NCBI GenBank assembly: GCA_033439265.1
Contig: JAVTVX010000024.1
Location: 186,001-250,000, forward strand
Reading direction: 5' to 3'
Length of the DNA: 64,000 nt
Source: Dillenia suffruticosa
Lineage: Eukaryota; Streptophyta; Magnoliopsida; Dilleniales; Dilleniaceae
Made by a program: the position numbers and the translations under genes
Notes under the pieces: generated by a model
What the model was told of the DNA's origin: nothing
The model's database searches: none
The model's input: only the letters and a program-made list of their open reading frames with translations
In this document: positions 17,745-58,122 of the stretch, piece by piece
Numbering within the stretch: the first letter of the stretch is position 1
Layout of the letters: each line of letters begins with the position of its first letter

Positions 17745-18260
17745 AACAAATATGTTTTCAAATTAACAAATTCGTTACAAAATTTACGTTGAAATTTTAT
17801 TTATTACAAATTTGTGACGAATAACATTTTCGTCGTAAATTTTGTGACGAATAACATTTTCGTCGCAAATTTTACGACAAAAAAATATTTGTTACAAATT
17901 TTGCAACGAATAAGTTATTTGTCGCAAATTATCAACGAAAAATAATTCGTCGCAAATTTGCCACAAAATATTTTTTGTTGCATATTTGTCACGAATCTAA
18001 TTTTCGTCGTAAATTTGTGACGAATAGTTTTTTTCGTCGGAATTTTTGTAACGAAATGCAATTCGTGATAAATTAGGAACGAAAAAAAATTCGTTACAGA
18101 ATTTGTTGCAAATTTGCAATGAATATTTTTCGTTGTAAAATTTATCGCTAATCAAAATTTACAATTCAATTTTAATAACGAAATTTGCGACGTGCTTAGT
18201 TTTGAGGGACAAATTTTACGACGAATATGTATTTTGCGACAAATATAAATTTTATTGGCA
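17745..18260. repeat. CACTA subterminal repeat block, left
   Basis: This is a run of short units of the type 'gtgacgaataacattttcgtcg' and 'ttcgtcgcaaattt' in both orientations, AT-rich with regular ACGA/TCGT words. In CACTA elements such blocks bind the element-encoded transposase. The same motif family occurs at the other end (29390-30050). Confidence 0.8.
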
Positions 18261-18386: not shown

Positions 18387-21093
18387 TGTAACGACGACTC
18401 TGTGATGTCTTATTTTTGTATGAGAAATTTTATTTGTTTATATTGAATTTTGATTTTGGAGTATTTAAATTGAATTTTTGGTACATTTAAATTTATGCCG
18501 TATCCGTGAAAATTTGTGTAAAATGAATATATATATATATATATGAAATAATAATAATAATGATAAAAGTAAAAAAAAAAAGAAAAAGAAAAAGAAAAAG
18601 AAAAGAAAAGGAAAGGAAAAAGAAAAGGAAAAAGAAAAAAAAAAGAAAAAAAAAAGGAAAAAGAAAAAAAGAAAAAAAAATCGAATAAGGGCTTAAAGCC
18701 CTAATTCTTCCTCTTTTTCTCTCTCTCTTTCTCTCTTTAGCCGTCTCTTCCTCTCCCGTAGCCGTGCCCGACCACCGCCCACCGCCCACCGCCATCGTCG
18801 CCGCCCTCTCTCCGCCTCTCCTTTCTCCCGCGAGCACTACCCCTTGGCGAGCGCGACTGTAGTTCCTCCGTCGCAGCGCAATCCTCCCCGCGCAAGCCCG
18901 ACACGCGATCTCCCGTGAGCAGCGCCTTCTTCCTTTGCACAAGCGCAAGCGCTCCTGCGCGATTCTTGCACGAGCGCGAGTGTGCCCCAACACGAGCGCA
19001 AGCGCGTTCCAGCGTGAGCACAGTGCGCACAGCACGCGACCCACTGCGCGCAGCACGCGACCCACTGCGCGAGAGCGCGCGCCTCACAGCCCATGAGCGC
19101 TCCAGCTTGCGAGTGCGAGCCCTAGCCCATGAGCGCTCCAGCCCGCAAGCGCTGCAGCCCGCAAGCGCTCCAGCTCGCAAGCGCGAGCCCTAGCTCGTGA
19201 GCCACCAGCCCGCAAGCCCACCAGCCCTCGAGCCCACCAACCCGTGAGCCTGCTAGCCCGCCAACCCACGAGCCTACCAGCCCACGAGCCCGCAACCGGC
19301 TTTCTCCTTCGAGAGCTCACCTGTATCTTCACTGTAGGTTTTAGACTAATCTGACAAGCGAACGGAATCCAGAAAGGAGATTGGGTAAATTATGATTCTA
19401 TTAAATTGGGAAGAAAAATCAAAAATCCCTTATTAGGCCTTTATTTGATATTAAATTGGGATGATTTGATTAAGTTGATCTTTTTAGAAACTCGAGGAGT
19501 CAGTTGGATTATTTTGAAAATAAGGAGTGACCACCCTTCCTAAAAATATGAGTGGAACTCTAATCTCTTATATGAAATAGTAAAACTTGTTTCTGTCATG
19601 TTTTCAATAAAACATGCATTCGATATGCATTGACTCGACGTGTGATATTAAATTTCAAAACTTATTTTGTGACATTTGGAGTGTCATAAATTTTTATTTC
19701 TGATAACTATGCATCCATGTTTGAAATGAAATGATATTGTGCCATTATTCGAAAACTAGATATGTTTTTTATTCTGCCGTCGCGTTGGCTTGGATTTGAA
19801 ATGATTTGATGAATGTATTGGCACATGGATTTGAAATATTTTTTTTTAATGAACTATGTAAATTGGATGCCCACTAGTTATGGAATGATATGATTCTTAC
19901 CTGTGGGACGTTGTACCCTTGTGATACTATGATAATGACATTGATGATTCCGTAGTTACGAAGGGCGTTTGTAGAGACACGGGTTGCTCGGATACACTTC
20001 TGTAGGAGGTATTCACAAACGTCATTGATTCTAAAGGCTATAGACGCGGCCGATTGAACCCATATAGGGGGAGGACGTGTGTGACACCACCGTCTAGCAC
20101 CAGGCGGGGTCTTATACACGATGATAAATTAGCCCCAACAAACTCATGGCCAACGTCAGGGTAGAGAGCAATTTTAAAGTTTATGCATAATAAAACCCCC
20201 GATTCGTCTGTTTTTTGTCATGGTTGACATTTGCCAGGATTATTTTTGGTTTGCTCTACTGTTATTTGATTTTTAAATGGATGCATACATGCTTATTATC
20301 GTGTGATTGATTTAATGATTTCAAATTGCTAAACATATCATATTTTGCTGTGAAATGTAAATTTTTGTTTCAAATGATATTATTTGGCACTCCAATGGTT
20401 CACCCACACTATTTATACTTGATATTATCCCCCTCACTCACTGTATATCTTCCCATGATACTCACCCCTCTCTTTTCCTTCCTCAGACAGGATTTTTGTG
20501 ATAGAGCGACATTTCAGGCTCTAAAGGTTTTGACAGCATACCCTGAGATTTGGTATTTATGACGGTGAGATTTAAGTTAAATTTGAAATATGAATTTCGT
20601 ACTTTGTTTAGACCTTGTGCGGTCTTGATATTGAAATCCGTAGTTGGCCGTGTATATTATGGGATGACTATATAACTTATGGGCAGTTGTGTGCATTACT
20701 TTCGTTTTGGTTCATTTTACTTGCATTGAGACATCTGTAAGTGTTTAAACTTTCTATTTGGGAAATTTGTTGTATATTTGTAAAAACTTTAGACCCGCTC
20801 AGTGTAGCGGCTGCTCATACTCTAGTTGGGCATGACAGTAAAGGTTTGTGGCTAGAATTGCTGGTAATTTATATAGCTTGGCGTTGTTCTGGATGTTTGC
20901 GGTGGTTGGTAGGTTGTTGTGAGGTCGGGATAACCATTTTATTTTATTTACAGAATGATTTTAAATTAAACAGGTTTATTTGTACATGAGAGACCTTCGA
21001 TTCATGGGGAGATTCTGCTCGATTTTCTGTAAAAATACAACCGGCATTCAGGACAACGGGCGGTTACTCACGAACCCGATTTGGGGCATGACA
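18387..21093 (+). mobile_element. Solo-LTR-like element A (2.7 kb) inside the CACTA
   Basis: It starts TGTAACG and ends GGGGCATGACA, so it has TG..CA ends. The four bases AACT flank it on both sides (18383-18386 and 21094-21097). No gag, pol, PBS or internal domain is present. The interior holds an A-rich tract, a GC-rich block at 18720-19330 with degenerate 'agcccgcaagc' repeats, and a 3' part shared with element B at 30332-33334 in opposite orientation, for example 'gcgttgttctggat'. I read it as a solo LTR of a long-LTR retrotransposon family; a very short non-autonomous element is possible. Confidence 0.7.
18720..19330. repeat. GC-rich degenerate tandem repeat inside LTR A
   Basis: The block contrasts sharply with its AT-rich surroundings. 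It consists of imperfect units such as 'agcgctccagc', 'gcgcgagccc' and 'agcccgcaagcccacc'. The open frames in both directions here (up to 190 residues) come from this repeat and have no protein-family features. The corresponding block in LTR B is at about 32240-32960. Confidence 0.75.
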
Positions 21094-21349
21094 AACTATT
21101 CAATAAGATCAATAAATTAAAAATTAAACAAGAAATCATAATAGTAATATCAAAGATAAAAGCAACATCAAGTCTAAATGTTAAAATATCAATAATCATA
21201 CATAAAAAAAAATCAATGTAACGAGTATCAAAATATAGCAGTCAAATAACAGTACACAATTTCAAACACGACCTCCACCATCATTATCATCATATTCATC
21301 ATCGAAGAAATTATCACCTTCATCACCATCGCGAGCATTATCAGGAGGA

Positions 21350-28139: not shown

Positions 28140-28790
28140 TATTGAAATTAGGGACAAATTTTTTGTCCCTAAATTCGTTGGAAATCAAGGACGGAATTTA
28201 ATTTTCATTCCTCAATCAGGAACGAAAAAAGTTCATCCCTGAATCCGGGAGGAAAAAGAAATTTCGTCCCTGAATCCGGGACGAAAAAGAAATTTCGTCC
28301 CTAAATCTGGGACGAAAAAAAATTCATCCCTGAATCAGAGACAAAAACAAAATTCATCCCTGAATCAGCGATGGTAAAAATTTTCGTCCCTGAATCGGGG
28401 ACAAAAAAAATAATTCGTCCCTGAATCGGGGACGAAAAAAAATTCATCCTTGAATCCGGGATGAAAAATAAATTCATCCTTGAATTAGGGATGAAAATGA
28501 CATTTTATCCCTAAATTAAGGAAGAAAAAGAAATTCGTCCCTGAATCCGGGACTAAAAAGAAATTCGTCCCTAAATTATGGACGAAAAAGAAATTCGTCC
28601 ATAAATCTCGTCCTTGAATCAGAGATGAAAATGAAATTTCATCCCTGAATCTGGGACGAATAAAAAATTCGTCCCTAAATCAGGGATGAAAAAAAAAATT
28701 CATCCATAAATCAATGACAAAAATTTTTTTCGTCACAGATTCATGGACAAAATTTAGTTTTCAACCCTGAATCAGCGATGAATGTGTTTT
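28140..28790. repeat. Array of ~30-bp palindromic units in the CACTA
   Basis: About 20 imperfect units follow each other. The typical unit is 'ttcgtccctgaatccggga' plus 'cgaa' then an A-rich spacer. TTCGTCCC and GGGACGAA within each unit are complementary, so each unit can fold as a hairpin. The array differs in sequence from the 'cgtcgcaaattt' units nearer the terminus at 29390-30050. It is probably a transposase-binding or structural region. Confidence 0.85.
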
Positions 28791-29389: not shown

Positions 29390-30055
29390 GAATTTTAGCG
29401 ACGAATTTTGCCACAAATGTTATATTTATTGCTAATTTGCAACAAATTCATAAACAAATAATCGAATTTTTTACAACGAATATAAATATTTGTCGCTAAA
29501 TTTGCAACGAATTTAGACATTCGTCGCAAATTTAAGGCAAAATTCATTTTCGTTCCAAATTTAGGGATGAATTGAGAAATTCGTCGTAAAATTTTGGGAT
29601 GAATAAGCGAATTCGTCTTAAATTTATGGACGAATTTTTTATTCATCCCAAATTTATGGACGAATGGTTAAATTTATCGCAAATTTAGGGACGATTAATT
29701 TATTCGTCGCAAATTTAGAGGCAAATTTTTAATTCGTTGCAAATTTTGTGGCGAATTATAAATTCGTTACAAATTTAGCGAAAAATTTTGAAATTCGTTG
29801 CAAATTTAGCAACGATTTTTTTTTTCATCGCAAATTGGCAACGAATTTTGCGTCAAAAATTTTTCGTCAAAAATTGGCGACGACTTTTGTAATGAAAATT
29901 TTTTGTGTTGCTAAATTTGCTACGAAAATTGTTTTGTTACTAAAATTGTGGCTATTTTGTGACGATACTATTTTTGTCGTTAAATTTGTTGCAGATTTGC
30001 TATGAATATTTTTCGTTACTAAAATTTATCACTGAATTCTTGTTTTATTGTAGTG
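29390..30055. repeat. CACTA subterminal repeat block, right, with terminus
   Basis: Dense units of the type 'attcgtcgcaaatttagg' and their complements run up to the CACTA terminus at 30051-30055. The open frames on both strands in this block (75-85 residues) are artefacts of the repeat. The same motif class is found at 17745-18260. Confidence 0.85.
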
Positions 30056-30216: not shown

Positions 30217-30331
30217 ATAATTATGTATTAGATGTGCATAACAATTTACTTATTAGTTGTTTGTGACTTCCTCACCTTGGACTTGGAGGTCAATATTTTA
30301 AAATTTCAAGTGAATTGAGATTGAGACAATT

Positions 30332-33093
30332 TGTCACGCCCTGAATCGGGGTCGTGAGCAGCTGCCCGTTGCCCTGAATGCCGGTTGTATTTCGACAAAA
30401 AATCAGACAAAAGCTCCTCATAAATTGGAGGTCTTTCATGTACAAATAAACCTGTATAATTTAAAATCATCCTATAAATAAAATAAAATGACTATCCCGG
30501 TCTTACAACAACCCACCAACCATAGCAAATATCCAGAACAACGCCAAACTATGTAAATTACCAACAATCTTAATCGCAGACCTCTACTGTCATACCCAAC
30601 TAGGGTAGAGCAGTCGTCACACAGAGCGAACCTAAGTTTTATACAATTTACAATAAATTTTCCCAAGTTAACATTTAAACACTACAATTTGCCTCAATAC
30701 AAATGAAATATGAGAGTTTCGCAATTTAATGTACATAAATTATACAGTCAATCCCAAATAAATATACGGCCAACTACGGAACTCAAGGTCAAGACCTCAC
30801 AGGGTTGAAAATAAAGTACGGAGCTCATATTCAATTTAATTTAAATCTCACCGTCGAAAAACACTCAAATCCGCTAATGAGCTATCAAATCTTCTAGAGC
30901 CTAAAGTGTCACTCTAGCATAATAATCCTGTTTGAGGAGGGAAAGAAGAGGGATGAGTATAAAAAAAAAATATCCAGTGAGTGAGGAGATTAATCTCAAG
31001 TACTAATAGTGTAGGTGAACATTGGAGTGTCAAATAATATCATTCATAACTAATAATTTAAATTTTACAGTAAATCATGATATGTTCGCTAAAATGAATT
31101 TATTTAATCAGTCACACGTTAACATACATATATATATATCCATTTAAAATCAAGTAGATCATACTGCAAGTCTAAAAGATCCTGGCACATCGGGAGTTTT
31201 ATTATGCATAAGGTTCAAAAGTAGCTCTCTACCCCGACGTTGGCCTTGAGTTCGTTGGGGATAGCTCATCATCATGTATAAGACCCTGCCCAGTTCTAAA
31301 CGGTGGCGTCACACACGTCCTGCCCCTTACTTGGGTTCAACCGACCGCGCCTATAGCCATTAGAAATATGACGTTTGCGGATACTTCCTACAGAAACGTA
31401 TCTGGGTAACCCGGTGCCTCTACAAACGTTTTTCATAGTTACGGAATTTATCAAATAATGTCATATCATCATATCATCTCAAGCTAGTAGGCATCTAACC
31501 CACATAGCCAAATCATCTCATCATATCCTCAAAACAATTCAAATCCGTGAGCCAATATATTTCATCGAAATCATTTAAATTCAACAAAGCAATGCAATGG
31601 TAGAATAGAAAACATTCCATTTCTCAAATCATGGCACAATTTCATTTCATTTCAAACATGAATGCATAATCGTAGAAAATATAAGTACGATATTCCAATA
31701 ATCACAAAATAGATTTGAATTTCAATTCCATACGTCGAGACAATGTATATCAAAAGCATGTTTTATTAAAAATACGATAAAATCAAGTTTCACTATTTCA
31801 TGCAAGAGATTAGGGTTCCACTCACTTTTTTAGGGAGGGTGGTCACTCCCTATTTTCCAGAATCAGAACAAATCGACTTCTCGAATCTCTAAGAAAGTCA
31901 ACCTAATCAGACTAGCACAATTGTCATCAAATTTCTAATTATTCTTAGGGTTTATCATCTTCCCTAAGTTTATATAAATCTTAATTTTTCAATTTATAAA
32001 TATACACCAATGTTATGTTAAAGGTATTGAAACCTAAATTCGATAAAATTTATTTCAAATATTGAAGAGATCGCATTTCTCTCACCTAGAGTTTTGCAAA
32101 TCTCAGACCTAGTTTTCGTTCGCCCGTTGAATTGGTTTAAAATCTGTAATATTTTCAAATTTGAATAATATTAGCAACTAACTCAAATTCTAAATATCCA
32201 ACCTTAGGACTACAACCAACATAGCCGTTACCTGCAGTGAAGAAGCCGCGACCTAGGGTTTCTGTGGAGATGGCAGCTAAGCTCTCGAAAGAGACGGCTG
32301 GTCGTAGGCTGGCAGGCCGTCGTGGGCTAGTAGGCTCGCGGGCTGGTGGGCTAGTGGGCTGGTGGGCTCGCGGGCTGGTCTGTAGTTGCGCGCCCGCTGG
32401 AGGTAGCGTGTTGTGGTGCGTTCGCGCTCGGCCGGGGAGGGATGCGTAGGGGCACGCTTATGCTGGGGAGATCACGTAAGGGCGTGCTCGTGGGTTACGC
32501 GCTAGTGGGCTGAAGCGCGCTAGTGGGCTGAAGCACGCTCGTGCACAAGCACGCGCTCATGCGCAGGTGGGCGCTCGTGCGCAGGTGCGCTCCCGAGCAG
32601 GCCCGCGCTCGAGCTGTGGAGCGCTGGCACGGGGAAACTGGCACTATGGCGCGCTTGCTTTCATGCAGGGTGGAGCAGCGGCAGCGCTCGAGGGAGGAAG
32701 GCGAGGTGGAGGAACGACGGAGGAACGGCGAAGGGGTGGCTAGTGGTGGTGGCGTGCGTGGACGATCGCGGCGAAGTGCGATCGAGAGGGAGGGAGATTG
32801 CGAGAAATAAAGAGAGGGTAAGCAGTAGAGAGAGAGAGAAACAGTGAGAGAGAGAGAAAAGGTAGAGAGGGGGGTCGGTGGTGATGGCAGTGGGCGGTGG
32901 CGATGGCGGTAGGCGACGGCGATGGTGGAAAGGGTGCGGTGGCCACGGGAAGGGGAAGAGGCGGAGAGAGAAAGAGAGAGGAAGAGAGAGAGAGAAGGAA
33001 GAGTTAGGGCTTTAAGCCCTAATTCGATTTTGTTTTTTGTTTTTTGTTTTTTTTTTTTGTTTTTTTACTCTTATCATTATTATTATTGTTTAC

Positions 33094-33154
<61 letters not shown>

Positions 33155-33334
33155 TTTTACACAAAAACTCGTAGATACGGTAAAAATTTAAAATATACCA
33201 AAAAATAAATTTAAAGACCCTAAAATCAAAAATCAATATAAATAAAAATTTATCTATATATATAACTAAGAAATATTTTATTTAATTTCTGAACAGGAGT
33301 ACAATAGTACGGATACTGCAGTGTCGATGTTACA
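30332..33334 (-). mobile_element. Solo-LTR-like element B (3.0 kb), inverted relative to A
   Basis: On the - strand it starts TGTAACATCGAC (33334) and ends with GGCGTGACA (30332). Flanking pentamers are caatt (30327-30331) and cgatt (33335-33339), one mismatch apart, consistent with an aged 5-bp target duplication. It shares with element A the TGTAAC start, the A-rich and TA-rich tracts, the GC-rich block (here 32240-32960) and the 3' third. It has no coding domain. The open frames in the GC-rich part are not genes. Confidence 0.7.
33092..33151. repeat. (TA)n microsatellite in LTR B
   Basis: About 60 bases of nearly pure TA, at the position matching the shorter TA run in LTR A (about 18527-18543). 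Confidence 0.9.
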
Positions 33335-34098
33335 CGATTTTAGATAATTAGTTTCAAGAAATTGTTTCATGATATTACTTTTTTTTTCTGTATCTAGTTA
33401 GAACCATCGCTCAATATCCGATTCTTTGTTTCAACTAATTTGGTCCGATCCGCTGTTGAGCCCTCTTTCAGGAGATCTCTCAATATGATTTTTTTCGTTT
33501 CCATGCCGAGTGAAACTAGATATGATTAAGAGATGTCAACGCCCTTCATATGCAATAGAAGCAACTTTGCTTGAGATATGATGTCAAAAAGAATTATTTT
33601 GTATATTTGGTGCATAAAAATAAAAATTTTAAGGTAATATAATAGTGATCGAGTTTATGTTTTATTTGGAATTTTTTTATTAATTTATGTTATTTAATAT
33701 TTTTAATTAATATAATTTTTTATGAAATCTTCGTGAGTATAAACCGATTTGTTTAATTTTAGAGGGTAATGAATAATTGTTTAAGGATTATCTATACTTA
33801 TCATGAGTTATGATTTGATGATGGTGGTAACAAAGAGATTGAGAAAAAAAATTTAATCCAAAATTCAATTAAATCTTTAACTTCATCCGATTATGATTGA
33901 ATTTTTAAATTTCAAAATACGTACCAATTGAATGATTGAACTAACTTGATAGATGATGTAAATATCATACATTGAGTTAAATTTTTTTTTGTTAATATAT
34001 TATGTGGCACATCAACACCTTATGTCCATACTACCGCTTACCTTAACAACTAGATATATCGAATCAAATGAAATCAGCTTCTCAATCCATTTATTATA
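33335..34098. other. AT-rich spacer, nothing recognised
   Basis: This spacer lies between LTR B and the foldback element. No open frame, repeat or RNA signal stands out. Confidence 0.4.
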
Positions 34099-37000
34099 CT
34101 GGGAGGGTTCTGACCACACAAGGTGAAAAAAGGAAATGAGGAAACCAAAAAAAAAGTAGAAAAAAATAGTAGGAAACGAGTAACGGGAGAATAAAAAAAA
34201 AAGAGTAAAAAAAAAAACGGGTGTAAAGTGAAAAAAAAAAGTAAAAAAAAAAATAAAAAAGAAGAAGAAGAAACAAAAAAAAAGTAAAAAAAAAAAAAAA
34301 GAAAAAAAGAAAAAAAGAAGGAAGGGTAAAAGGTGAAAAAAAAAGAAGTAAAAAAAAAACTGAAGGGTAAATGATAAAAAAAAAGAAATAAAAAAAAAAA
34401 GAAGTAACTCAAAAAAAGGAACGGTAGCAAACTATTCCCATCCATGGTGTCAATTCCTCCCACATCCCTCTCCCCACTTGTTTTTTTAAAAAAAAACATT
34501 CGATGGTGTGTACCTGTATATGCACACAGTCTTTTTATTGGAGGGTGTTTTACTAAATTAGACAATCAAAAAGGCCCAAAAAAAGGAAATGACTCGAAAA
34601 AAATCAAATTCCACCAAGAGGCATCAATAGGAGGGGGACTTCCAAAGAGAGTTACAAAAACAGTGAAATCTACAAAAAAAAAAAGTGAAAAAAAAGCGGA
34701 AAGAGGAGAAGAGATAGATTAATAAGGCAAAAAGGGTGAAGAAAAAAAAAACAAAAGTAAAAAATAAAAATTAAAAAATTAAAAAAAGGGAGTAATAGCA
34801 AACCGATAACAGTGGAATAAAAAAATGCGTAGAGAGAAAGAGAGATGAAGAGAGAGAGAGAAGAAAGAATTAGGAAAAAAAATACAAAAGAAAAAGAAGA
34901 AATCCAAAAAAAAAGAAGTGATAAAAAAGAACTGTGGCAAACTAGTAACATGAAAGCCAAAAAAATGGAGTGAAAAAAAGAAGGGTGACAGGTGAAAAAA
35001 AATAAAAAAAATAAAAACCTAAAAAAAGTAAAAAAAAAAAGGAAGAGTGAATGATGAAAAAAAAAAGGAAAAAGGGTAAATTTGTGAAAAAAAAAAGAAG
35101 TAAAAATAGGAACAGTAGCAAATCCGTAATAATGGAACCCAAAAAAAAAGAAAGGTGAAGGTTGAAAAAAAAGAAGAAGAAACCCAAAAAAAGTAAAAAA
35201 AAAAAAAAAGAAAAAAGGGAAAGGTGAAGAATGATCCAAAAACGAATCAAAAAAAGGGACATGCTACATCGGATGGGACACTTGCTACTATTCTCTCTTT
35301 TTTTTCCCCCATTTTTTTGGATTTCTTTTTCTTTTTTTATTTTTTTATTTTTTTATTTTCATCCATTTACCATTTTTTTGCTTTTTTTATTTTTTTTACC
35401 CTTCATCATTCCTTTTTTTTTTTTTTTTACTTTTTTGGGTTTTTTCTTCTTAATTTTTTTTCTACTTTTTTTTTTCACCATTCACCTTTCTTTTTTTTTA
35501 CTTTTTTTTTTTTTTTGGATTCTACTGTTACATTATTGTTCTTTTTTTTTTCGGCCTTCATCATTCCTTTTTTTTTTTTACTTTTTTTTGAGTTTCTTCT
35601 TCTTCTTTTTTTCACCGTTCACCCTTCTTTTTTTTTTCGCTCTTTTTTTTTATTATTTTACTGTTACCAGTTTGCTACTGTCCCTATTTTTTTACTTCTT
35701 TTTTTTCACTAATTTACCCTTTTTTCCTTCTTTTTTTTCATCCTTCAAACTTCCTTCTTTTTTTTTTTTTTTTTTTTTACTTTTTTTGGGTTTCTTTTTC
35801 TTCTTCTTCTTTTTTTTTACTTTTTTTTCATCATTCACCTTTCTTTTTTTTCACTCATTTTTTTTTATTTCTCTATTATCGGTTTGCTGCTATTTATTTT
35901 TTTACTACTTTTTTTGGGTTTCTTCCTTTTTTTTTTACTTTTTTTTCCACCACTCATGGGGAGGGGAGTGGGAGAGAATATCACCTCGGATGGGAACAGT
36001 TGGATACTGTTCCCTCTTTTTTTTTTTTCTTTTTTTTGGGGTTTCTTCTTTTTTTTTGTTACTTTTTTTGGATTTCTTCTTTTTTTTTTCACTATTCAAG
36101 CTTCTTTTTTTTCCCTCATTTTTTTTGAATTCTACTTTTACCAGTTTGTTACTATTTTTTGGTTTTTTCTTTTCTTTTTTACTTTTTTTTCCACCATTTA
36201 CTATATATATATATATCTTATCTTAATTTTAATTTTTCTTAATTTTCTTAATTAAAAATAATGATAATAATAATAATAGGGGGAGTGGAAGGGACTACCA
36301 TTTCGAATGGATCCGTTTGCTACCGTTCCTTTTTTTTTTTTCTTTTTTTGGGGTTTCTTTTCTTTTTTTTTTTTGCTTTTTTTTCACCCTCTATCCTTTT
36401 TTTCACTCTTTTTCTTTTGGGTTCTACAATTACCGATTTGCTATTATTCTTTTTTTTTACTTCTTTTTTTTTGTTTCTTCTTTTTCTTTTTTACTTCTTT
36501 TTTTTTTCCACCCTTTGCCTTTTTTTTTTTTTGCTTCGTTTTTTTTTTACTTCTTTTTTTTCCCACCCTTTTTCCCTTTTTTTTATTACCTTTTTTTTTG
36601 AGTCTCTTCTTCTTCTTCTTTTTCTTTTTTTTTTAAAATAATTTACTTCTTTTTTTTTCCCATTCTTCATCCTTCTTTTTTTTACTATTTTTTTGGGTTC
36701 TATTGCTACCGATTTGCTACTATTCCTTCTTTTTTTATTTCTTCTTTTTCTTCTTACTACTTTTTTAACACTTCACATTTTTTTCCTTATTAATCTATCT
36801 TTTCTCCTCTCTCCGCTTTTTTTCACTTATTTTTTGTGAATTTTATTATTTTCACAACTTTCTTTGGAAGTACTTCCTCTTCTTGATGCCATTTAGTACA
36901 ACTTGGTTTTTTCAAATCATTTCCTTTTTTTTGGACTATTTTTTGTTGTCTAATTTACTAAAATATTATTCGATAAAAAAAAAACTCTGCGCACATACCG

Positions 37001-37432
37001 TTACACACCATATTTTTTTAAAAAAAACACCAAGTGGGGAAGGGGAGGGGTAGGTGGAAGGAATAGCTAACTTGGAGGGAAACAGTTTGATACTGTTCTA
37101 TTTTTTGGAGATTTTTCTTTTTACTTCTTTTTTTTCACCCTTTATCCTTCATTTTTTTACTTCTTTTTTTTTCATCTTTCACTCTTTTTTTTAAAAAATT
37201 TTTTTGAGTTTATTCTTCTTTTTTATTTCTTTTTTTTACCCTTCACCTTTTTTTCACTCTTTATTTTTTGGGTTTCCCTGTTACTGGTTCCTACTATTCT
37301 TTTTTTTTACTATTTTTTATTATTTATTATTTTTTTATCCATCATTATTTTTTTAATAATTATAGCACGCTTAAAAAAAAAAAAAAAAAATCTGAACCAA
37401 CGTCGCAGCTTGTGCGGTGAGAACTCTCCTAG
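34099..37432. mobile_element. Giant foldback element, homopurine/homopyrimidine arms
   Basis: The terminal inverted repeats are CTGGGAGGGTTCTGACC at 34099 and, from the right end on the - strand, CTAGGAGAGTTCTCACC at 37432; they match at 20 of 24 positions. Both ends abut TA (34097-34098 and 37433-37434). The left third of the + strand is A/G with long A-runs; from about 35290 it is T/C with long T-runs. The block 34430-34725 is the inverted counterpart of 36790-37090, including 'attaatctatctcttctcc' and a segment ending 'acaagtggggagaggg'. No transposase is visible. The frames of up to 331 Phe/Leu-rich residues are translated T-runs. I do not recognise a named family. Confidence 0.7.
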
Positions 37433-39416
37433 TAATAGGAAAAAAGAAAGATGGAGGAGACCGTAGACGCAAACGTGTCACTTGTGCAATTTAATGCTTT
37501 TGGAGCTCCGAAGTTATCCTGGTCACTTGCCTCCCCTGGCCCTGCCTAACAAAACCAAAAACGAAGTCAAAAAGTTAAACGCAATGCCAGGTAACGTACT
37601 TGCTCATCAAAACCAGGCCTGCACAGCAGTCCTACGTAGAGGTGTTATGACACCCGGATCGAGCTCGGGTATCATTAACATCCCTGGTCCTATGTGGTTT
37701 CATTTTATTTATTTATATATTTATAATTTTCTTAAATAATACCCCAAAAAAAATGTAAACAAAGGTTCCAGAGTTTGGCGGGGCATCAAATGCCGTTGAA
37801 ATGATCCAATGCTATATTAGTTAAAAGTGTTGCCTAAAAATCTTGATTCAATTTCTTAATTTAATTTTATTTTATTAGTAATTGTTATTTATTAAAAAAA
37901 TATAGAATTATGAGTATAAATCAAAAAAAATTTTTAAAATTTAAATTTATTTTAACTTTTAAATTTTAAAAATTTTTTATTATTTAGTTTAGGTTGAATG
38001 AACCCAAAATATGGTGGAAATCTCGATCCGAGTACATGTTGATATTGGGAAAGGACAAAAAGGGATCGACTTCGATTTCCGTCGCGCATTATAAGATTGG
38101 GCGAGCAATAATATTCACCGACAGCGACGATGATAAATAAATAAATAAATAATAATTGGTCATGCTCTCATGGGCCAATTACTATGCTTTGCTCCCCGAG
38201 TAGTGCTGTTGCTGCCCTTTTAAATAAACGCTTTGGAAATGAGGGTCTTGAAATCCCTCTCTCTCTCTCTCTGCAAAGCAAAAGCATAAGCAAGCATGAT
38301 GATTTTCCCACTTCAATCACCGTGGGACCTAATTGCCATTAGAACAAAAAAAAAAAAAATTATATATAGTTACAAACATGTCAATTGTAGGCGCATATAT
38401 ATAGAAATTATACTGGAAAATAGAAATGGTGATGACTGGTGAGGGATCATGACAGTGTCACTTCCACATGGGGTTCGGGCTTAGTTGTAATTTACACCAA
38501 CACCATCCTCTTATTTATTTATTTATAACTCTGACCGGACAGGACTGGACTGGACTGGACTGGACGTGCTTCGGGACTCCCAAGTTGTGAACGCCGTGTG
38601 CGTACGTGTCTACTTCGATTCAAAATTTGGCATTATTTATTAATAAAAAAAAATTAAATACAAATTAACATATGGTATAACGCCAGGTCAGCGGCCCTAC
38701 TAGAAGCTGCGTGGAGGTCAATCCTTGTGGACCTTGAAATGAAAAGTAATATTTTATCACATAGAAATTGAGAATCACGCAGGGGTGTGTTTGGACGAAT
38801 AAATAAAGCTGTTAATATGGATATCTAACAACATTTAGTTGAAACACCCACCAAATAATTTTGTGTCCAGGCAGCACATGCAAGAGCATTTGAACTTATT
38901 TGAAACATATTCCTGAATATTTATTTAACTAAAATAATATATAATACACATGTTATAAGTATGATCAATGATGTCAAATCTGAAGATCAACTAGATATTT
39001 GTAGAGGAATATAATGACTTTTTATTCATAGAGGTCTATCTCTTAATCTCGCAGAAAATACCAAATTGTCTAAACGGAAGTTTCTTTCTTTCTTTTTTCC
39101 TTTTTTTTTTTTGGGGGGGGGGGGGGTTGGATACAGAAGGAGCTTCCAAATCCTTGGAAAAAAAAAAATTTTCGGAAACTCATGTTTCAACAAACAAATA
39201 TTGGATGCTGCCGGTCACTGAAATGTGTAGCAGCAGCAGTCTAATAATAAAAACTTAATCAACAATCTTGACAAACCTGGGATAATAATCACATCACTGT
39301 TCACACACCCACCCCCCCACACACACCCCCACCTGTACCTTGGAATGAATTCAGGGGACCACATAATAGCCACCCAAATTATCCACTACGTAGGTACCTT
39401 AATGAAGCGAATTATA
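37433..39416. other. Intergenic region downstream of the ERF gene
   Basis: No gene is supported. It contains AT-rich DNA, a short (CTGGA)n run at about 38545-38563, a (TC)n run near 38259-38272 and a run of 14 G at 39113-39126. The last few hundred bases should include the ERF 3' UTR. The 85-residue frame at 37482 has no recognisable features. Confidence 0.45.
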
Positions 39417-40984
39417 TTACTCCCTTGCGCCCTTCCCATGCTTCGGATGAGTACGATTGTTCGAAGAGGAACTCCCAAACTGTGAGGGAAACCTTACAAG
39501 CTCTTGTTGTTGTGGTTGTTGCTGAGACTCCGACGACATGGATGGTGAGGACTGTGAGCCAAAAGATTCTTGACGATAAAGATTTGGAGCGAAATAGGAA
39601 AAATCAGGATCACTGCTGGAGAGAAGTTGTGCGTATTGCATGTAGTCATTGTAGGACGCAGTGTAATCCTGTGATTGCAAGAACTGTTGATAGCTCGAAG
39701 GATGGGCAATTGACTGATGATCCGCTGCTGGAAAGACTTGTTGGGACGGGGCAATATTATTGCTCGCGTATGTGTTTGTGTACTCATGTGAATAATTAGA
39801 ACTTGGCAAGTAGCTCAACTCAGTGGTCTTCCCTTGAACCCGTTCCGGGAAATTAAGCTTGGCTTTGGTGCCTTTGAACTTGAGAGCGGCTTCATCATAA
39901 GCAATGGCTGCATCCTCGGCAGTCTCAAACGTGCCGAGCCAGACTCTAGCAGCTTTCCTAGGGTCCCGTATTTCAGCGGCCCATTTCCCCCATGGCCTTT
40001 GTCTAACTCCTCTATAGTGTCTTCTCCTTCCATTCCCTTCAAAACAATGAACACAATCATTCCAATTGCTGCCAACAAATCTTTTAAAATGCATGCCCTT
40101 CCTACAGTGATAGTTTCCCATTCCTCATAACATTTATGGCTTGCAAGATTTTTTGTTGTTTTATATAAATGTACTATCTAAATTTTTCATACTGTTGGTG
40201 TTCCAGATTCGGGTTGCATGGGCATCCCACTTCTTGACATGTGCCCAAGGGTGTGGTTTGCACATCTAGCAGCTCCATGAATTTATGAGCTAAAATAAGC
40301 ATAATAAAAGGTCTTTTCAATGCCCAATTATCTGATTTTCTTAAGACTAAATGCTATCTATGAGGGCCATGTGCTCTCATTGTACATGAGAAGTCATTGG
40401 GTCAACCCATTCTTGCTCTCTTCAATTAATTAAAAAAAATGATTAAATAACCCTTTCTGGCTCTCATTGTACATTTACGCTCCCCCCCAAACAAATAGTT
40501 TTTTCTTTGTTAAAAATGATACAAGAATGTTAATATGCACAATGTGCGTGTGCGTGGGGACAGAAGGGAGAAAGAAAGAAGTTCATACGCCATGTGGCTG
40601 TATGGATTTAATCACATGAGCTAAATGCGACATTGCTGAAGCAAATATGAGTTCCCTAGTCTTTTAACAACTGGTAAGAGGAATGGGGAAGTTTTCTCCC
40701 AGAGCTAACAGGAATAACAAATTTGAGAGCAAATACCACACCGTAGAGTGGATTTGACAGTGTAAAAAATGCTAAAGTAGGCTGAAAGAGAATTGGTTCC
40801 CAAAAGACAAGAAGAATAAATGATTGAAGGAATCGTATTGAGATGGTGACTCTTAAATAAACTACACCTTTGTACAATAATATTATTGAGTAACATACTC
40901 AATTACAAAGAAAAAAGCAAAAATTTGATGCTTTTAAGTTTTGTTGAAGGTAATTAAGGAGCCAGATTTTTTACATTCAATAGA

Positions 40985-47815: not shown

Positions 47816-48510
47816 TCAATATTCCAAACCCGGTTTATTTTGATATATACTTAATATCTTCACGGCATGCACTATATCAAATCTTATATAGATTTGTGTA
47901 TACATAAAGCTTCCAACAATTGAAGCATATGAGATGTTAACTATTTGTTCCATTTTCAAATCTATCTTAGAGTATTGGTCCAAATGAAATCTATCCCCTT
48001 TGACAATTGGAATTATATTTGATGAATAGTCCTCTATCCTGTATTTCTTAAATACTTTGTTAAATACTTTGTTAATGTAAATCTCTTGAAATAGTTTTAG
48101 GACCTTATAAGATTTATCTTTATATATCTCTATACCGATGACATAAGATCTATCATTTAAATCTTTCATTTCAAAATTCTTAAAAAAGAACTGTTTCGCC
48201 TTATTCAACATTCCCTTATCATTAGTAGCAAATAATATATCATCCACATACAGAATAAGAAAACAAAATTTGCTCTCACTAATTTTGAGATATATATTGA
48301 TCCACAATATTCTCTTAAAAAAAATGAAATGACTACATTGTGAAATTTGAAATACCACAGGCAAGAAGTTTGTTTCAACCAATATATAGATTTTTTGAAT
48401 TTGCATATCGAGTTCTCACTACCATTAGAGGAGAATCTTTTAAATTGATATATATATATATATATTTGCTCTAATTCTCCATTAAAAAAAACTGTTTTCA
48501 CATCCATTTA
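47816..48510 (-). pseudogene. Copia reverse transcriptase remnant
   Basis: Read on the - strand, MDVKTVFFNGELEQ opens the RT domain, followed by ENSICKFKKSIYWLKQTSCL and WYFKFHNVV. After a frame change comes FCFLILYVDDILFATNDK with the catalytic YVDD box. MKDLNDRSYVIGIEI and later ISYASIVGSFMYTQIY follow. This order and spacing is the standard Copia RT. At least one frameshift separates the two halves. Confidence 0.92.
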
Positions 48511-52465: not shown

Positions 52466-52810
52466 ATTACTTCTTAAAATCTAATTTTCACTCCAATTGT
52501 TTTCAAATCCCAATTTGGCTTTGCCTCTTAAATGTAAGAAATAGAGAGCTATACTACACCCACTACTCAACAGTTTTGCGTAAAACAATGTCACATTGCG
52601 AGTCTGGAAAAGTGATAGTAGCAGACAATTGGAAAAACTATCCAGCCAGCAATAAGTTGGGGCTCTTCCGGCAAATGAATCGGATGAAACTGGAGCATAA
52701 TCCAGGCGCTGGTGTGGTGGGATCAATCCTAGATGAGAATAGGCAAATAGCTGGCTTGAAGCCTCGTGAGATTGCACAGCATAATCTAGTGGTTGGAAGG
52801 AGGGTGATGA
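52466..52810. other. Short island between two retrotransposons
   Basis: These 345 bp lie between the Copia 5' LTR and the Gypsy LTR. They are more GC-rich than the neighbours and open in two frames (+ 52576-52821 with GVVGSILDENRQIAGLKPRE; - 52825-52481). I recognise neither. The island could be an exon remnant of a disrupted gene or part of an older element. Confidence 0.35.
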
Positions 52811-54648
52811 TGTGTCGTTAAACAATCAAAAATAAATTATCTATTTTGAAAAGACGAGTTTAGGGCAAGTAGGGTCGAATCCACAGGGAATGGCGGATTT
52901 ATATCTTTTAAGAAAAACAAAAATACGGGGGTTTGAGAAATTATCTAAAACTAACAAAACAAATAAAATTAACTAAAATAAAAAAATTAAATACTATCAA
53001 TTAAAAGAGAAAATATCAATGAAAAAAATTATAGCCAAATGAATTATTTCCACATTGATTTCATACGATTGGTCATTGACCTATCTAAAGATTTCCATAA
53101 CCATAAATAAATTGGTTATAGTCGCCAACAATCGCCAAACGACCAATCTCTCCTTATTTCGTCGATAATTAAGAGAAACTCATTAATTATTTCCCTAATT
53201 GAGAGTCAACCCTAGAGAAACTCTTAGCATTGAAGGTCTCAACAACATTAAGATTTAGAGAGATCAAATTCTAATTAACAAACACATATCGGGTTCATTT
53301 AAATTAGATCATTTAATCCCATAACACGAATGTCATTCCCATGATACGAATGCCAATTACCACTTTATTAAAATCAACAAACAATTACGGATTTACAGTT
53401 TTAATTAGTTGTAGATTATTCTAGATCTATTAAATATTGGCAACTATTCAGTAAACCCTAGAAAATCATGATCCATGAAGTGCAGAAATTAAATAAATAC
53501 CTATGATTGTTGAAAGAATAAACACATTTAGATTTCACAATTATTGAAAATCAAGATTTTAATAACTCTTTGATTAGAAAAGAAATTAAAACAAAATCAT
53601 TTAAAAAGAAAAACTCACAAATTAAATTAAAAATTAAAAATGGGTAAAGGGTATGATAAGGGGATATTTAAGGGTTAAAAACGTATCAAAAGAAATATAT
53701 AATTAACTACATAATTCTCATAATATCGATTGATCTTTGTCTCAAATAATCAACAAACAAAATTTGACTTCTTGCTCTTCAAATATATAGCCAACAGCAA
53801 ACAATATACAAGATGTCAAATGATTTCTCAATTTTTCATAATTGAAGTATAAATAAATTTTCAATCAAAATACAATATTTCTCTTTTTCATCCATTTTTT
53901 TTCTTTTCTTTTTGTTTTTTCTTTTTTTCAGCATTTTCTTTTTTTTTTTTGATTTTTTTTCGAACATATATCATTTTCATGAAAATGTCAACATCAAAAT
54001 TCCAATCATCATCTTTCTATTGAAACGAACATAAAACCAAAATCATGCAATTAAATATATATACCTTTGGTACAAGGGTTTGAAATGAAGGCTAAAATCA
54101 AAGGTTAGGTGTTGTATTGAGTGAGTTTTAAAGAAAAAAAAGGTAAATGCTCAAATTGGGTAGTTAAGGGTTTATGAAATCAGGGTATAGATTTTAAGAA
54201 AGCCAAAAATGGGGTAAAACCTAAGTGCCTTTATCATTTCAATGCATAAAATCCTATATGTGGTCTCGAAATGCATAACAATGTAAGTTCTAGAATGTGC
54301 AATCCAAGTGTGATAAGCACTCATCAAGAAAAAATAATCTCGAGCACAAAAAATGAATTTGCTCGTTTATGGCTCAAAACCTTACTTTTTAAGTAGAGTT
54401 CGTGTCAAATCTTACATGCTCATCATTCAAAGAAAACTATTAAAGACATGAGAAGCCATTTCAAGTACCAAGGCCATTGATACAAGCCATTTTTCATATA
54501 TCTCTAGCCAACCAAATAGCATACATCAACAAAGAAAGCTCGGAATTTTTTTTTTCTTTTCAATTTTTTTTTTCATTTTTGAAGAAACAAAATTTAAACT
54601 AAAAAAATATAGTGTCAAAAATCAAAACAAAAAGAAAAACACCTAACA
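52811..54648 (-). repeat. Gypsy 3' LTR (~1.84 kb)
   Basis: In element orientation it starts TGTTAGGTG at 54648, directly after a G-rich polypurine tract, and ends ACGACACA at 52811. The interior is AT-rich without coding frames. Its terminal 540 bp match 56511-57050. Confidence 0.75.
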
Positions 54649-54864
54649 TCCCCCATACCTAAATCATACATTGTTCCCGATGTATGCTAAATGAGAGAGA
54701 AGAAGAAAAAAAAAATAAAAATAAATAACCATCATCTCAAATTAAAGCAAAAATAAAATAAAATATAAAAAATAAAAAAAAAATAAAGTAAGAACAAGAC
54801 TTCCCTAGGGTGGAGTGATGAATGGAGGGTTAAATCCAATAAGTTTTGCAGAAAAAGTTATGGT

Positions 54865-55012
54865 GGCAGCAATGGACCCCTTCTTAGGACGTGGGCACGC
54901 CCTAACTCATGTGTAATTCCGGTCATTTGAGAACATCAACAAAATTGGGCAGCAATAAAGGCTTGTTAAGGCGTGGGCACGCCTTACTGGCAGAGCACTT
55001 CTGGTCATCAAA
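54865..55012. repeat. Two ~84-bp imperfect tandem units
   Basis: Both units start ggcagcaat, carry the palindrome-like word cgtgggcacgcc in the middle and end with ggtcat. They lie between the pol remnant and the polypurine tract of the Gypsy derivative. Confidence 0.7.
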
Positions 55013-55153
55013 TTTTTCCACTTTTTATTTACCTAAAAAATCAAAATCAAAACTAAATCAAATCAAATAAATATAAAATAAAATAAAAATATTGGGTTGC
55101 CTCCCAACAAGTGCCGTTGTTTAATGTCTTTGGCTCGACATTAGCTCCTCGTT

Positions 55154-55915
55154 TTAATCTCGTTCAAAGATCGGTTCGGTCCATTTTGACTTTAACTTAC
55201 TGGGAATGAATTTCAATCTTAAATTGAAATGAAGGACTTTATGGCCTACCAATGATTGTGTCCAACGTGGGAGTTTGTCATCAAAAAATTTGTCCCATTG
55301 TGCAACCTTATTTGTCACATTTTCCTTAAACACAAAATCCAATTCATCTTGCACAAAATTATCATGAACAATGAAATCCACCATACTATCATGAAAAATA
55401 GATTTAAAATCATTTGGATATTTCATGATATCAAAAATATTAAAAGTAATAACTTTACCATTAAACTCAAGAGTTAAAATACCCAAATCCATATCAATTA
55501 TTGTCTCAACTGTTTTCATGGATGGTATTGACACTTGCTTTGTTGCCTCTAAGAGAGAAATGTTGAATCCTTCTTTCGGAGAAGTTTTCAAAATCTCATT
55601 CTCTTCCTCTTTTTTTGGTTGTGCCAACCAGCTGGGAACATGTGGTAAGATCAAAATTTTTGTTTGGAAAGTGTTGGACTCTTTACTTACCTCCTCGGTG
55701 GATTCATTCGCTATTGATGATTTCTCTATTTGCTCGTTCGTCGTATCTTCTTCGGCTTTTGATGAATTGTCTTCCACTTCTTTTGATGATTTTTCTAATC
55801 GACTTACTGTTGCCATCAATTGTGACATTTGATTTTCTAAATTTTGGATGTTGGCTCTTGTCTCCTGTTGAAATCGTTGGCTTTCCTGTTGAATTAACAA
55901 AGTGCTGTTAGCCAA
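55154..55915 (-). pseudogene. Gypsy gag tail fused to protease junction and integrase tail
   Basis: This is a single open frame of 253 codons. Residues 1-60 (QQESQRFQQETRANIQNLEN, then QMSQLMATVSRLEK) are the coiled end of plant Gypsy gag. An acidic Ser/Glu-rich linker follows. Around residues 130-165, IIDMDLGILTLEFNGKVITF and NIFDIMKYPNDF match the segment after the aspartic protease. It then ends with LVGHKVLHFNLRLKFIPSK and LKSKWTEPIFERD, which matches the last part of Gypsy integrase ('R L x L F P G K L x S R W x G P F'). Reverse transcriptase, RNase H and the integrase core are skipped without breaking the frame. It was probably made by an internal deletion. Confidence 0.75.
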
Positions 55916-56014
55916 ACTTTTAACAATCTCTTCTAGAGACGTATCTCGGGTCGAAAAAGTTTGTTAAGGTTGAAATTGAGATTGGACTTGTGGTTGTTGT
56001 TGGAATCCTTGTTG

Positions 56015-56414
56015 TCAATTTCCATAATTGAAATATGGTTCATTACACCATTTTTGGTTATAGATGTTCGAATATAGGTCATCATAAAAAATGGGATACT
56101 TAACGGTTGGATGATCTATCTCTGAACAAATTCCACAAGTTTGCATCGGTTGTGTTTTTCCTACAATAAAATCACGCATAAGAGAAGTTAGTTCTTTCAA
56201 TTCTCGACGAAAGGAAAAATCACTTACCTCATTGACCGTTTTTGGAACATCTTGCCACATTCCAAATTGTTTGAAAAATCTCAATATTAGAAAATTCACT
56301 GCAAAAGGTATGTTCATTAAAATCCGAAAATAACAACTCCCTTAAAGTCTTTTGTGTGGCCATATTCTCGTGGTTGATGTCCTTCTCTTTGAAGCCCTTG
56401 ACAACTTTTGGCAA
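56015..56414 (-). pseudogene. Gypsy gag 5' part
   Basis: Two overlapping frames on the - strand give LVKGFKEKDINHENMATQKT-like and MQTCGICSEIDHPTVKYPIF text, then NQKWCNEPYFNYGN. The Cys-x-x-Cys..His group is the region where Gypsy gag carries its zinc knuckle. A stop follows YGN before the frame resumes as QQGFQQQPQVQSQ. It sits between the primer site and the longer frame at 55154-55915. Confidence 0.65.
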
Positions 56415-56485
56415 GTTCCCTACAAAGGGTTAGTCTTGCAAACAAGGAAAAAAAAATTAAAAGAAATAAATCACTTAACACCGTT

Positions 56486-56510
56486 CCCCGGTAACGGCGT
56501 CAAAATTTGG
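56486..56510 (-). other. Gypsy primer binding site region
   Basis: Immediately inside the 5' LTR, the - strand reads CCAAATTTTGACGCCGTTAC then CGGGGAACGG. This resembles the 'tttggcgccgttgccgggga' text common next to the 5' LTR of plant Gypsy elements. It fixes the element orientation and the LTR border at 56511. Confidence 0.7.
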
Positions 56511-57050
56511 TGTGTCATTAAACAACCAAAAATAAATTACCTACTTTGAAAAGACGAGTCTAGGGCAAGTAGGGTCGAATCCACAGGGAATGACGGATTT
56601 ATCTCTTTTAAGAAAAAATAAAAATACGGGGGCTTGAAAAATTATCTAAAACTAACAAAACAAATAAAATTAACTAAAATAAAAAAATTAAATACTATCA
56701 ATTAAAAGAGAAAATATCAATGAAAATAAATTCTAGTCAAATGAATTATTTCCACATTGATTTCATACGATTGATCATTGACCTATTTAAAGATTTCCAG
56801 AACCATAAATAAATTGGTTATAGTCGCCGACAATCGCCCAACGACCAATCTCTCCTTATTTCGTCGATAATTAAGAGAAACTCATTAATTATTTCCCTAA
56901 TCGAGAGTCAACCTTAGAGAAACTCTTAGGATTGAAGGTCTCAACAGCATTAAGATTTAGAGAAATCCAATTCTAATTAATAAACACATATCGGGTTCAT
57001 TTAAATTAGATCATTTAATCCCATGACACGAACGTCATTCCCATGACACG
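56511..57050 (-). repeat. Gypsy 5' LTR, truncated
   Basis: It matches 52811-53350 base for base with scattered substitutions and then diverges abruptly near 57050. The remaining ~1.3 kb of the LTR is missing, so no target duplication can be seen on this side. Confidence 0.8.
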
Positions 57051-58122
57051 AACAACTCTCTTGGTACTTACCAATAAGAACCTTCTCACTAATCGGTTTC
57101 AATACCTTCTCGATATTCGGTATTATTATTCAATCCACTTAAGTAATATTTATTTATTTTTAATCACAGAAACGACTTCTCATAATTAGAAATGAGATCT
57201 TTAACTATTATCAATAAGGAATGAAATATTTTGATAATTTAAACTTTTTTAACTAATAGAATTTTAAATCTTTTAAAAATCTTTTATAGCAAATTTTACA
57301 ATTTCGGAATATTTTCATAAGAAAATTAAGATTTCATTACTCATATACACACAAAACTCACACACAGAGACTATATATATATATATCATAAGGCTATCGG
57401 CCAGATTTGTTCTCCTAATCCAACACTTAATATACAAAAAACAATGCAGAACTTTTTCAATATGTTTCTATTTTTTTTTTTTTGTTATATAACAATTTAA
57501 ACCAGTGATCATCAAATTGGGGAGAGAAGTTTGTACACTATGTTGTCTTTTTGAAAACTTTTTCAATATGTTTTTCTTTCTAAAAAATGACTATCTGACT
57601 TAAGTATCAAAATCTTTTTTATCGGAATGCCCTGGGATGGGATGATATTTTATAGGTTCCATCAATCAGAACACCCTTCAACCGTCCATTCTGTCCAAGT
57701 CACCGGAGTTATTATTTATGGAATGAGATCCACCTCCGACACAAGGATAAGTGTGGAGGAGTATAGGAGCTGATTTTAACACCAAGGTAAGCGGACAAGA
57801 TAAAAGGAGGTTAAAGAAAAAAGGTTATCGGTATTTAAGTTGACGTTTTTCCCAAAAACAAATATCAGATCCATGATTTGCACAAGTATAACTTGGTACA
57901 GGGCAAATTACAAAGAAACAATGCACATATTACAATCTTCCTTCGTTGACACTTTATGCACGGACTTTCCGTACCAAAATATATTATGTTAAAAAAGAAA
58001 ATGAAATTACACAACTGCCTGCCTTAAATATACAACCAGGCTCTAATCTAGCACTTATATAGTATTCAACTATTCATATGATGAACAAACAATAGAGCAC
58101 CCTATTATGCTAGTCGTAGGTT

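Follow-up and report, generated by a model that had tools for sequence, protein, structure and literature searches.

Two facing copies of a pyrimidine-rich Helitron family very probably account for a foldback-like locus in Dillenia suffruticosa

Helitrons are moved by RepHel, which starts at the 5' TC of the element, halts at the 3' hairpin and CTAG, and inserts the copied strand between an A and a T without duplicating the target. Elements of this kind are defined, in the portions of two papers drawn on here, by a TC start, a CTAG or CTRR end, a hairpin of 16–20 bp located 10–15 bp before the 3' end, and a flanking A and T (PMC2267711, PMC4683698). A non-autonomous example is Mothra of rice, about 2 kb in length (1252–2741 bp), whose repeat blocks were proposed by its authors, in the sections that treat them, to aid transposition and to change in number through slippage or unequal crossing-over (PMC4683698). 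Helitrons may also lie side by side. A maize pair is discussed beside head-to-tail junctions in a paper whose abstract mentions head-to-head dissimilar Helitrons, and which cites head-to-tail Helitrons of the bat Myotis (PMC2267711, in the parts concerned with adjacent elements). Among foldback transposons, MuTAnT is described in the relevant part of its report as sitting in TA microsatellites (PMC4486113).

The locus considered here occupies positions 34099–37432 of a 64,000-nucleotide stretch of Dillenia suffruticosa DNA, referred to below as the window. A preliminary description took it for a single foldback element with a purine left arm and a pyrimidine right arm. Its repeat geometry, its strand switch and its nature as mobile DNA have held up, but the single element has given way to two facing copies: the locus very probably consists of two independent copies of one non-autonomous Helitron family, arranged head-to-head with their 3' ends outward.

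The locus and its two arms

The window corresponds to C24:186001–250000 of a 596-Mb assembly in 37 contigs and lies within a contig of 21 Mb. It contains no N bases anywhere and resembles plant nuclear DNA, with an AP2-domain reading frame at 39417–40124 and a copia-type reverse-transcriptase fragment at 47816–48415. Rfam and tRNA searches of the window gave no matches. When 34099–37432 was compared by BLAST with the rest of the window, there were no matches with the low-complexity filter on and, among the 25 best unfiltered ones, only simple-sequence tracts (e.g., 18565–18680 and 53896–53977).

Several other repeats are present in the window. An old large inverted repeat takes up 18405–21104 and 30320–33274, where 19454–21104 pairs with 30320–31922 (74.8%) and 18405–18809 with 32889–33274 (70%); both of its arms carry GC-rich minisatellites, and it perhaps represents two inverted copies of another element. 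At 52808–57052, direct repeats of ~545 bp, 94.5% identical and 3.7 kb apart, enclose an open frame (55154–55963), an arrangement that looks like an LTR retrotransposon. Arrays of a ~30-bp unit with GACGAA/TTCGTC at 17761–18160, 28162–28782 and 29429–30033 are mutually related and partly self-complementary, and a 96-bp unit is duplicated in tandem, near-perfectly, at 2651–2839.

The features of the pair, with the two copies designated A and B, are as follows.

34099..35253, minus strand: copy A, read as a non-autonomous Helitron with its 3' end at 34099, from alignment with 13 full-length copies
~35253, minus strand: inner boundary of copy A, approximate (± 15 bp)
34099..34143, minus strand: 3' terminus of copy A, ending CCAG, a decayed CTAG
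34410..34750, minus strand: unique anchor block of copy A, with at least 40 scored genome matches, the window included
34097..34098, no strand: TA beside the 3' end of copy A; the minus strand reads T A after CCAG
35254..37432, plus strand: copy B, read as a non-autonomous Helitron with its 3' CTAG at 37429–37432, from alignment along the family consensus
35257..35297, plus strand: remnant of a 5'-end module at the start of copy B, sitting at the purine/pyrimidine switch
35952..36014, plus strand: 5'-end module repeated inside copy B, containing a GGGAACAGT...ACTGTTCCC palindrome; limits set by eye
36770..37110, plus strand: unique anchor block of copy B, from end and arm alignments, 83.3% identical to the consensus
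37388..37432, plus strand: 3' terminus of copy B, ending CTAG
37433..37434, no strand: TA after the 3' end of copy B, made up of the T of the target between A and T plus one A

Copy A spans approximately the last 1.2 kb of the family consensus, the 5' half being missing, and its 3' hairpin is reduced to three contiguous pairs plus two G-U pairs in an alignment read by eye. Copy B is nearly full length but lacks about 45 bp at its start, the TC among them; its identity to the consensus is low in the first ~100 columns, a few gaps occur, and its hairpin at 37401–37419 keeps 7 of 8 pairs, again in an alignment read by eye. The module remnant at 35257..35297 aligns over 43 columns with the 5' region of one relative (L042) at a score of 25, a raw value without a significance estimate, and the internal module at 35952..36014 includes a box match of 21/23 at 35992.

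The ends of the locus are inverted relative to each other, as had been claimed, and align over 29 bp with 5 mismatches; a TA adjoins each of them (34097–34098 and 37433–37434). A degenerate 27-bp pattern built from both ends, which matches these by construction, has no third site in the window at 3 or fewer mismatches and none in 100 shuffles. The switch from purine to pyrimidine near 35.26 kb is likewise evident from the purine fraction per 100 bp, mostly 0.7–0.9 up to ~35.2 kb and mostly 0.1–0.2 beyond 35.3 kb. To call the arms almost pure, however, was an overstatement, since copy A is 77.8% purine and copy B 75.4% pyrimidine; stretches of mixed composition occur at 34.4–34.6, 35.9–36.0, 36.2–36.3 and 36.9–37.1 kb.

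The pairing of the anchor blocks (~340 bp) is strong: 34420–34750 against 36770–37100 scores 254, compared with 24.3 ± 3.3 in 200 shuffles (z 69). Outside the anchor, pairing of the arms reaches z values of 6.7, 7.0 and 13.0, where two control flanks from beyond the element give 4.2; the excess is much smaller here because low-complexity purine DNA self-pairs anyway. The arms are not mirror images. The right one (2178 bp) is nearly double the left (1156 bp), and the inner left arm scores 277 against 35262–36290 and 188 against its mirror position, the former stretch being twice as long. On the purine strand, boxes resembling GGAACAGTAGCAAACTGGTAACAGTAGAACCC run along both arms, the first three being spaced by 255 and 371 bp in the left arm and by 201 and 373 bp in the right. 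An RNA fold of 35100–36000 has a z of −8.3 (20 shuffles), which only restates the inverted purine and pyrimidine arms. No transposase frame was seen inside 34099–37432, in agreement with the preliminary description.

The family across the genome

That other copies should exist was borne out by a genome search with the anchor, which gave at least 40 matches (40 of 298 candidates were scored, the window's own included). The relatives are 83–87% identical, the window itself excepted, and are spread over many contigs. When loci of 3.3 kb were read, the supposed terminal inverted repeat was present in 18 of the 29 other anchor loci and absent within 1.5 kb in 11, but loci of this length are too short to show a partner end 3 kb away, and the window's own locus (L001) also shows only one end there. 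Reading was extended to 10 kb for the 18 loci with the 3' end. Not one of the 18 has a second end of this type on either strand, at a threshold of 8 mismatches in 30 that both ends of the pair would pass and at which the own 3' end was recovered in 17/18 loci as a positive control. The notion of one transposon with terminal inverted repeats thus fails among the relatives.

The opposite end of the copies is a different one. In 13 of the 18 relatives it is TCTTACTATAATAG-like and lies 2.1–2.75 kb away, and the inner ends of the copies share the distinct terminus A/TCTTACTATAATAGAAAAGAACAAG, where the slash marks the boundary. The layout of the family on the pyrimidine strand is A/TC ... GGCCGCAC-CTT-GTGCGGCC-AGAACCCTC-CTAG/T. 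Thirteen of the 18 loci were used as full length, with L031, L032, L033, L040 and L045 excluded for having no single clear 5' end, and these copies measure 2069–2752 bp. The 5' TC is found in 12/13 of them and the 3' CTRR also in 12/13, both counts being partly selected because the copies were picked by end matches. Not selected for are the A that precedes the 5' end in 10/13 full-length copies and the T that comes after the 3' end in 17/18 ten-kb loci. The GC-rich 3' hairpin has a stem of 8 bp and a loop of 3 nt and stops 13 nt before the 3' end. Pairing is kept in 81.9% of 160 cells (20 sequences), compared with at most 48.8% in slid versions; there is no covariation beyond that of shuffles.

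Across the genome, the 3'-end pattern has 92 matches against 0 for the reversed control, and the 5'-end pattern 146 against 4. Among 100 of the 146 5' matches, a 5' end was found within 9 kb upstream, on the same strand, for 37 of the 92 3' ends, and the largest cluster of distances (12/37) is at 2.3–2.55 kb. An exact head-to-tail junction, CTAG/TCTTAC, is located at C12:25190244–25190298. One copy (L037) is nested in the 5' end of another, and joining its flanks restores TCA/TACTATAATAGAAAAGAAC with no duplicated base.

Two further arrangements were observed. In L033 and L040, TCTTACTATA follows the 3' end directly or after 2 bp, and these loci are probably tandem head-to-tail copies of the family. 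Twelve of the 92 3'-end matches fall within G000:C5:6113892–6557995, all on the minus strand and mostly spaced by 19–52 kb; 8 of the 12 read CCGCAACTTGTGCGGCCAGAGCCCACCTAGT, and the region constitutes a large local amplification with a variant Helitron end.

The TC start, the CTRR followed by T, the hairpin, and the lack of terminal inverted repeats and of target duplication, all assessed at the level of the family, mark it on sequence grounds as a non-autonomous Helitron. The window copies alone would fail a strict Helitron test because both TC 5' ends are missing and copy A ends in CCAG (copy B reads CTAG/T and copy A CCAG/T at the 3' terminus), and their membership comes by way of the relatives.

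Where would the RepHel come from? The genome has 149 PF14214 (Helitron_like_N) matches, a count that includes separate pieces of single copies. For the match at C5:7496507–7497049, a family 3' end is found 9.1–9.2 kb downstream on the same strand; about 0.1–0.2 such neighbours would be expected by chance, by arithmetic from the match counts, and one locus was observed. Parts of this element resemble Helitron_like_N, PIF1 and Pif1_2B, and copia pieces are nested ahead of its 3' end. Its likeness to the family is confined to the final 82 columns (88%; 29 of the last 30 bp); its body is not rich in pyrimidine, and no 5' end was found in the 12 kb read. This decayed RepHel element is a candidate for the mother of the family.

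Origin of the inverted arrangement

How does a family without inverted ends come to resemble a foldback transposon? The supposed terminal repeat is seen twice because two Helitron 3' ends face opposite ways, and the strand switch is simply the meeting point of two pyrimidine-strand elements in opposite orientation. The TA at either end of the pair consists of the T found after a Helitron 3' end and one further A, which leaves room for a TA duplication at this locus: TA is found on both sides of the pair, and the relatives have their A before the 5' end (10/13), their T after the 3' end (17/18) and, in L037, an insertion without duplication. The family is thought to move by rolling-circle (peel-and-paste) transposition, presumably in dependence on RepHel made elsewhere. 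The second copy would have landed, in reverse orientation, at or close to the 5' end of its predecessor, if the order of events is read correctly, and the long inverted centre would then have lost DNA, namely the 5' half of A and the first ~45 bp of B. As it stands, the pair should be immobile, because both 5' ends are gone.

A single foldback or long-TIR DNA transposon, with a TA target duplication and a DDE transposase binding the 27-bp ends, would explain why these ends are inverted with TA on both sides, why boxes and anchor are collinear in both arms, and why the flanks, when joined with the TA kept once, resemble a Helitron 5' end, as would fit a TA duplication. It is nevertheless highly improbable, given that the inverted pair occurs in 0/18 ten-kb relatives, that the copies have at their other end a different conserved sequence starting with TC, and that the nested L037 was inserted between A and T without duplication. 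There is also no other outward-facing pair of 3' ends within 8 kb among the 92 matches, a list that does not include decayed ends like those of the pair. Membership in a foldback or long-TIR family was rejected on the 0/18 count, and a Mutator-like foldback element (FARE, MuTAnT) was rejected as well, since no 9-bp match between flanks was seen by eye at the few boundaries inspected.

Inverted duplication of one Helitron, for example by a template switch that produced a palindrome which then decayed, would account for the TA adjoining both 3' ends, and is compatible with an AU test in which A and B were held as sisters (p 0.316). The relationships of the copies make it very unlikely all the same. 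The anchors of A and B are 78.3% identical, compared with 77.1 ± 2.4 simulated for independent copies, and a recent inverted duplication was rejected on this divergence. The rows nearest to A are L014 (90.6%), L008 (88.5%) and L026 (88.3%), whereas B is the least similar to A among 30 rows; just 2 of the 22 departures of A from the consensus are common to B, where other copies share 15% on average. Decay is unequal, too, with anchor identities to the consensus of 92.0% for A and 83.3% for B, although the halves of one event should match. The tree is star-like and places A, weakly, near L002, L007 and L014. As for an assembly artefact, in the form of misjoined copies or of a foldback chimera, inverted DNA of low complexity is prone to errors, but a chimera would have nearly identical arms, while the anchor arms are 78% identical, and the window has no N and lies within a 21-Mb contig; hardly any credence is given to this explanation. 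Most likely, the head-to-head layout came about where two insertions met, and does not represent a new type of element. The locus is real and mostly ordinary, the Helitron kind being already known and the family a further member of it.

When the flanks of the pair are joined with the TA kept once, they read ...TTATTATAATAGGAAAAAAG... and resemble the family 5' end, with a score of 34 against a maximum of 33 in 2012 other window stretches, a thin margin obtained with the TA removed by hand. A third, decayed Helitron may surround the pair, which would then lie within its start. Empty sites had been proposed as a check, and a genome search with the joined flanks yielded no clean one, returning only the flanks themselves and, at C26:20151930–20152063, a sequence related to the right flank (77%). 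There the similarity begins 7–8 bp outside copy B, past its 3' end, as would suit this end being a boundary. C26 is not a clean empty site, because the left flank has only two short matches there (49 and 79 bp), both inside a Helitron copy. In this region (L051/L052, C26:20151500–20155300), ~230 bp separate the right-flank relative from the 5' end of a further copy of the family; that copy is ~2.5 kb long, has a decayed 3' end (19/30) and shares the orientation of copy A. This proximity may be due to chance or to an old shared locus.

Strand bias and relation to known systems

The odd purine and pyrimidine strands are a trait of the repeat family. All 13 full-length copies are 71–75% pyrimidine on the strand that ends in CTAG. 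In the family consensus, the 5'-end module recurs internally five more times, with scores of 59–92 against at most 35 in 14 control stretches; two of these repeats have the exact AACAGT...ACTGTT palindrome and three an altered version. One narrow search of the open-access literature found no description of strand bias in Helitrons, none of this family was found in the open-access literature on foldback elements, boxes and Helitron layout, and the box pattern had no matches in viral contigs. It is conceivable, though unlikely, that the strand-biased body evolved with the bias helping rolling-circle transfer, in that it could keep the moved strand single-stranded and free of hairpins. Alternatively, the repeated modules could offer several start sites, and copy length would then vary with the module used. 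With its pyrimidine strand and its repeats of the start module, the family could serve to test whether internal sequence affects Helitron copying. The locus also illustrates that two one-sided elements can mimic a foldback transposon, and that annotation guided by inverted ends can assign them wrongly.

Inverted arms that contain internal repeats or modules, as seen here, are also described, in the relevant parts of the reports, for the foldback transposon Tetris of Drosophila virilis (PMC4079207) and for the MULE foldback MuTAnT of Medicago (PMC4486113). Both are presented as families of TIR elements, however (PMC4079207, PMC4486113), whereas inverted ends are found here in 0/18 ten-kb relatives. 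MuTAnT makes 9-bp duplications (PMC4486113); the few boundaries inspected at the Dillenia locus showed none.

The closest published analogue seen, likened by description and not by sequence, would be Mothra, as portrayed in the part of its report used here (PMC4683698). Mothra and the present family have in common the TC start, the CTAG end, the hairpin 13 bp before the end and the target between A and T. Mothra likewise has direct-repeat blocks, one with 20% GC, in numbers that vary between copies (PMC4683698). The present family differs in its 71–75% pyrimidine body and in the repeats of its own 5'-end module, no strand bias being reported for Mothra in that part of the paper (PMC4683698). 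The proposed mother of Mothra has an RPA gene and no RepHel, while the candidate found here has decayed RepHel pieces (PMC4683698). For the arrangement at the locus, the adjacent maize Helitrons are the nearest parallel described in the sections cited: the two abut and were judged to be independent insertions by their sequence difference, as here (PMC2267711). Unlike in maize, the two copies at the Dillenia locus belong to one family, and their head-to-head meeting has produced a long imperfect palindrome (PMC2267711).
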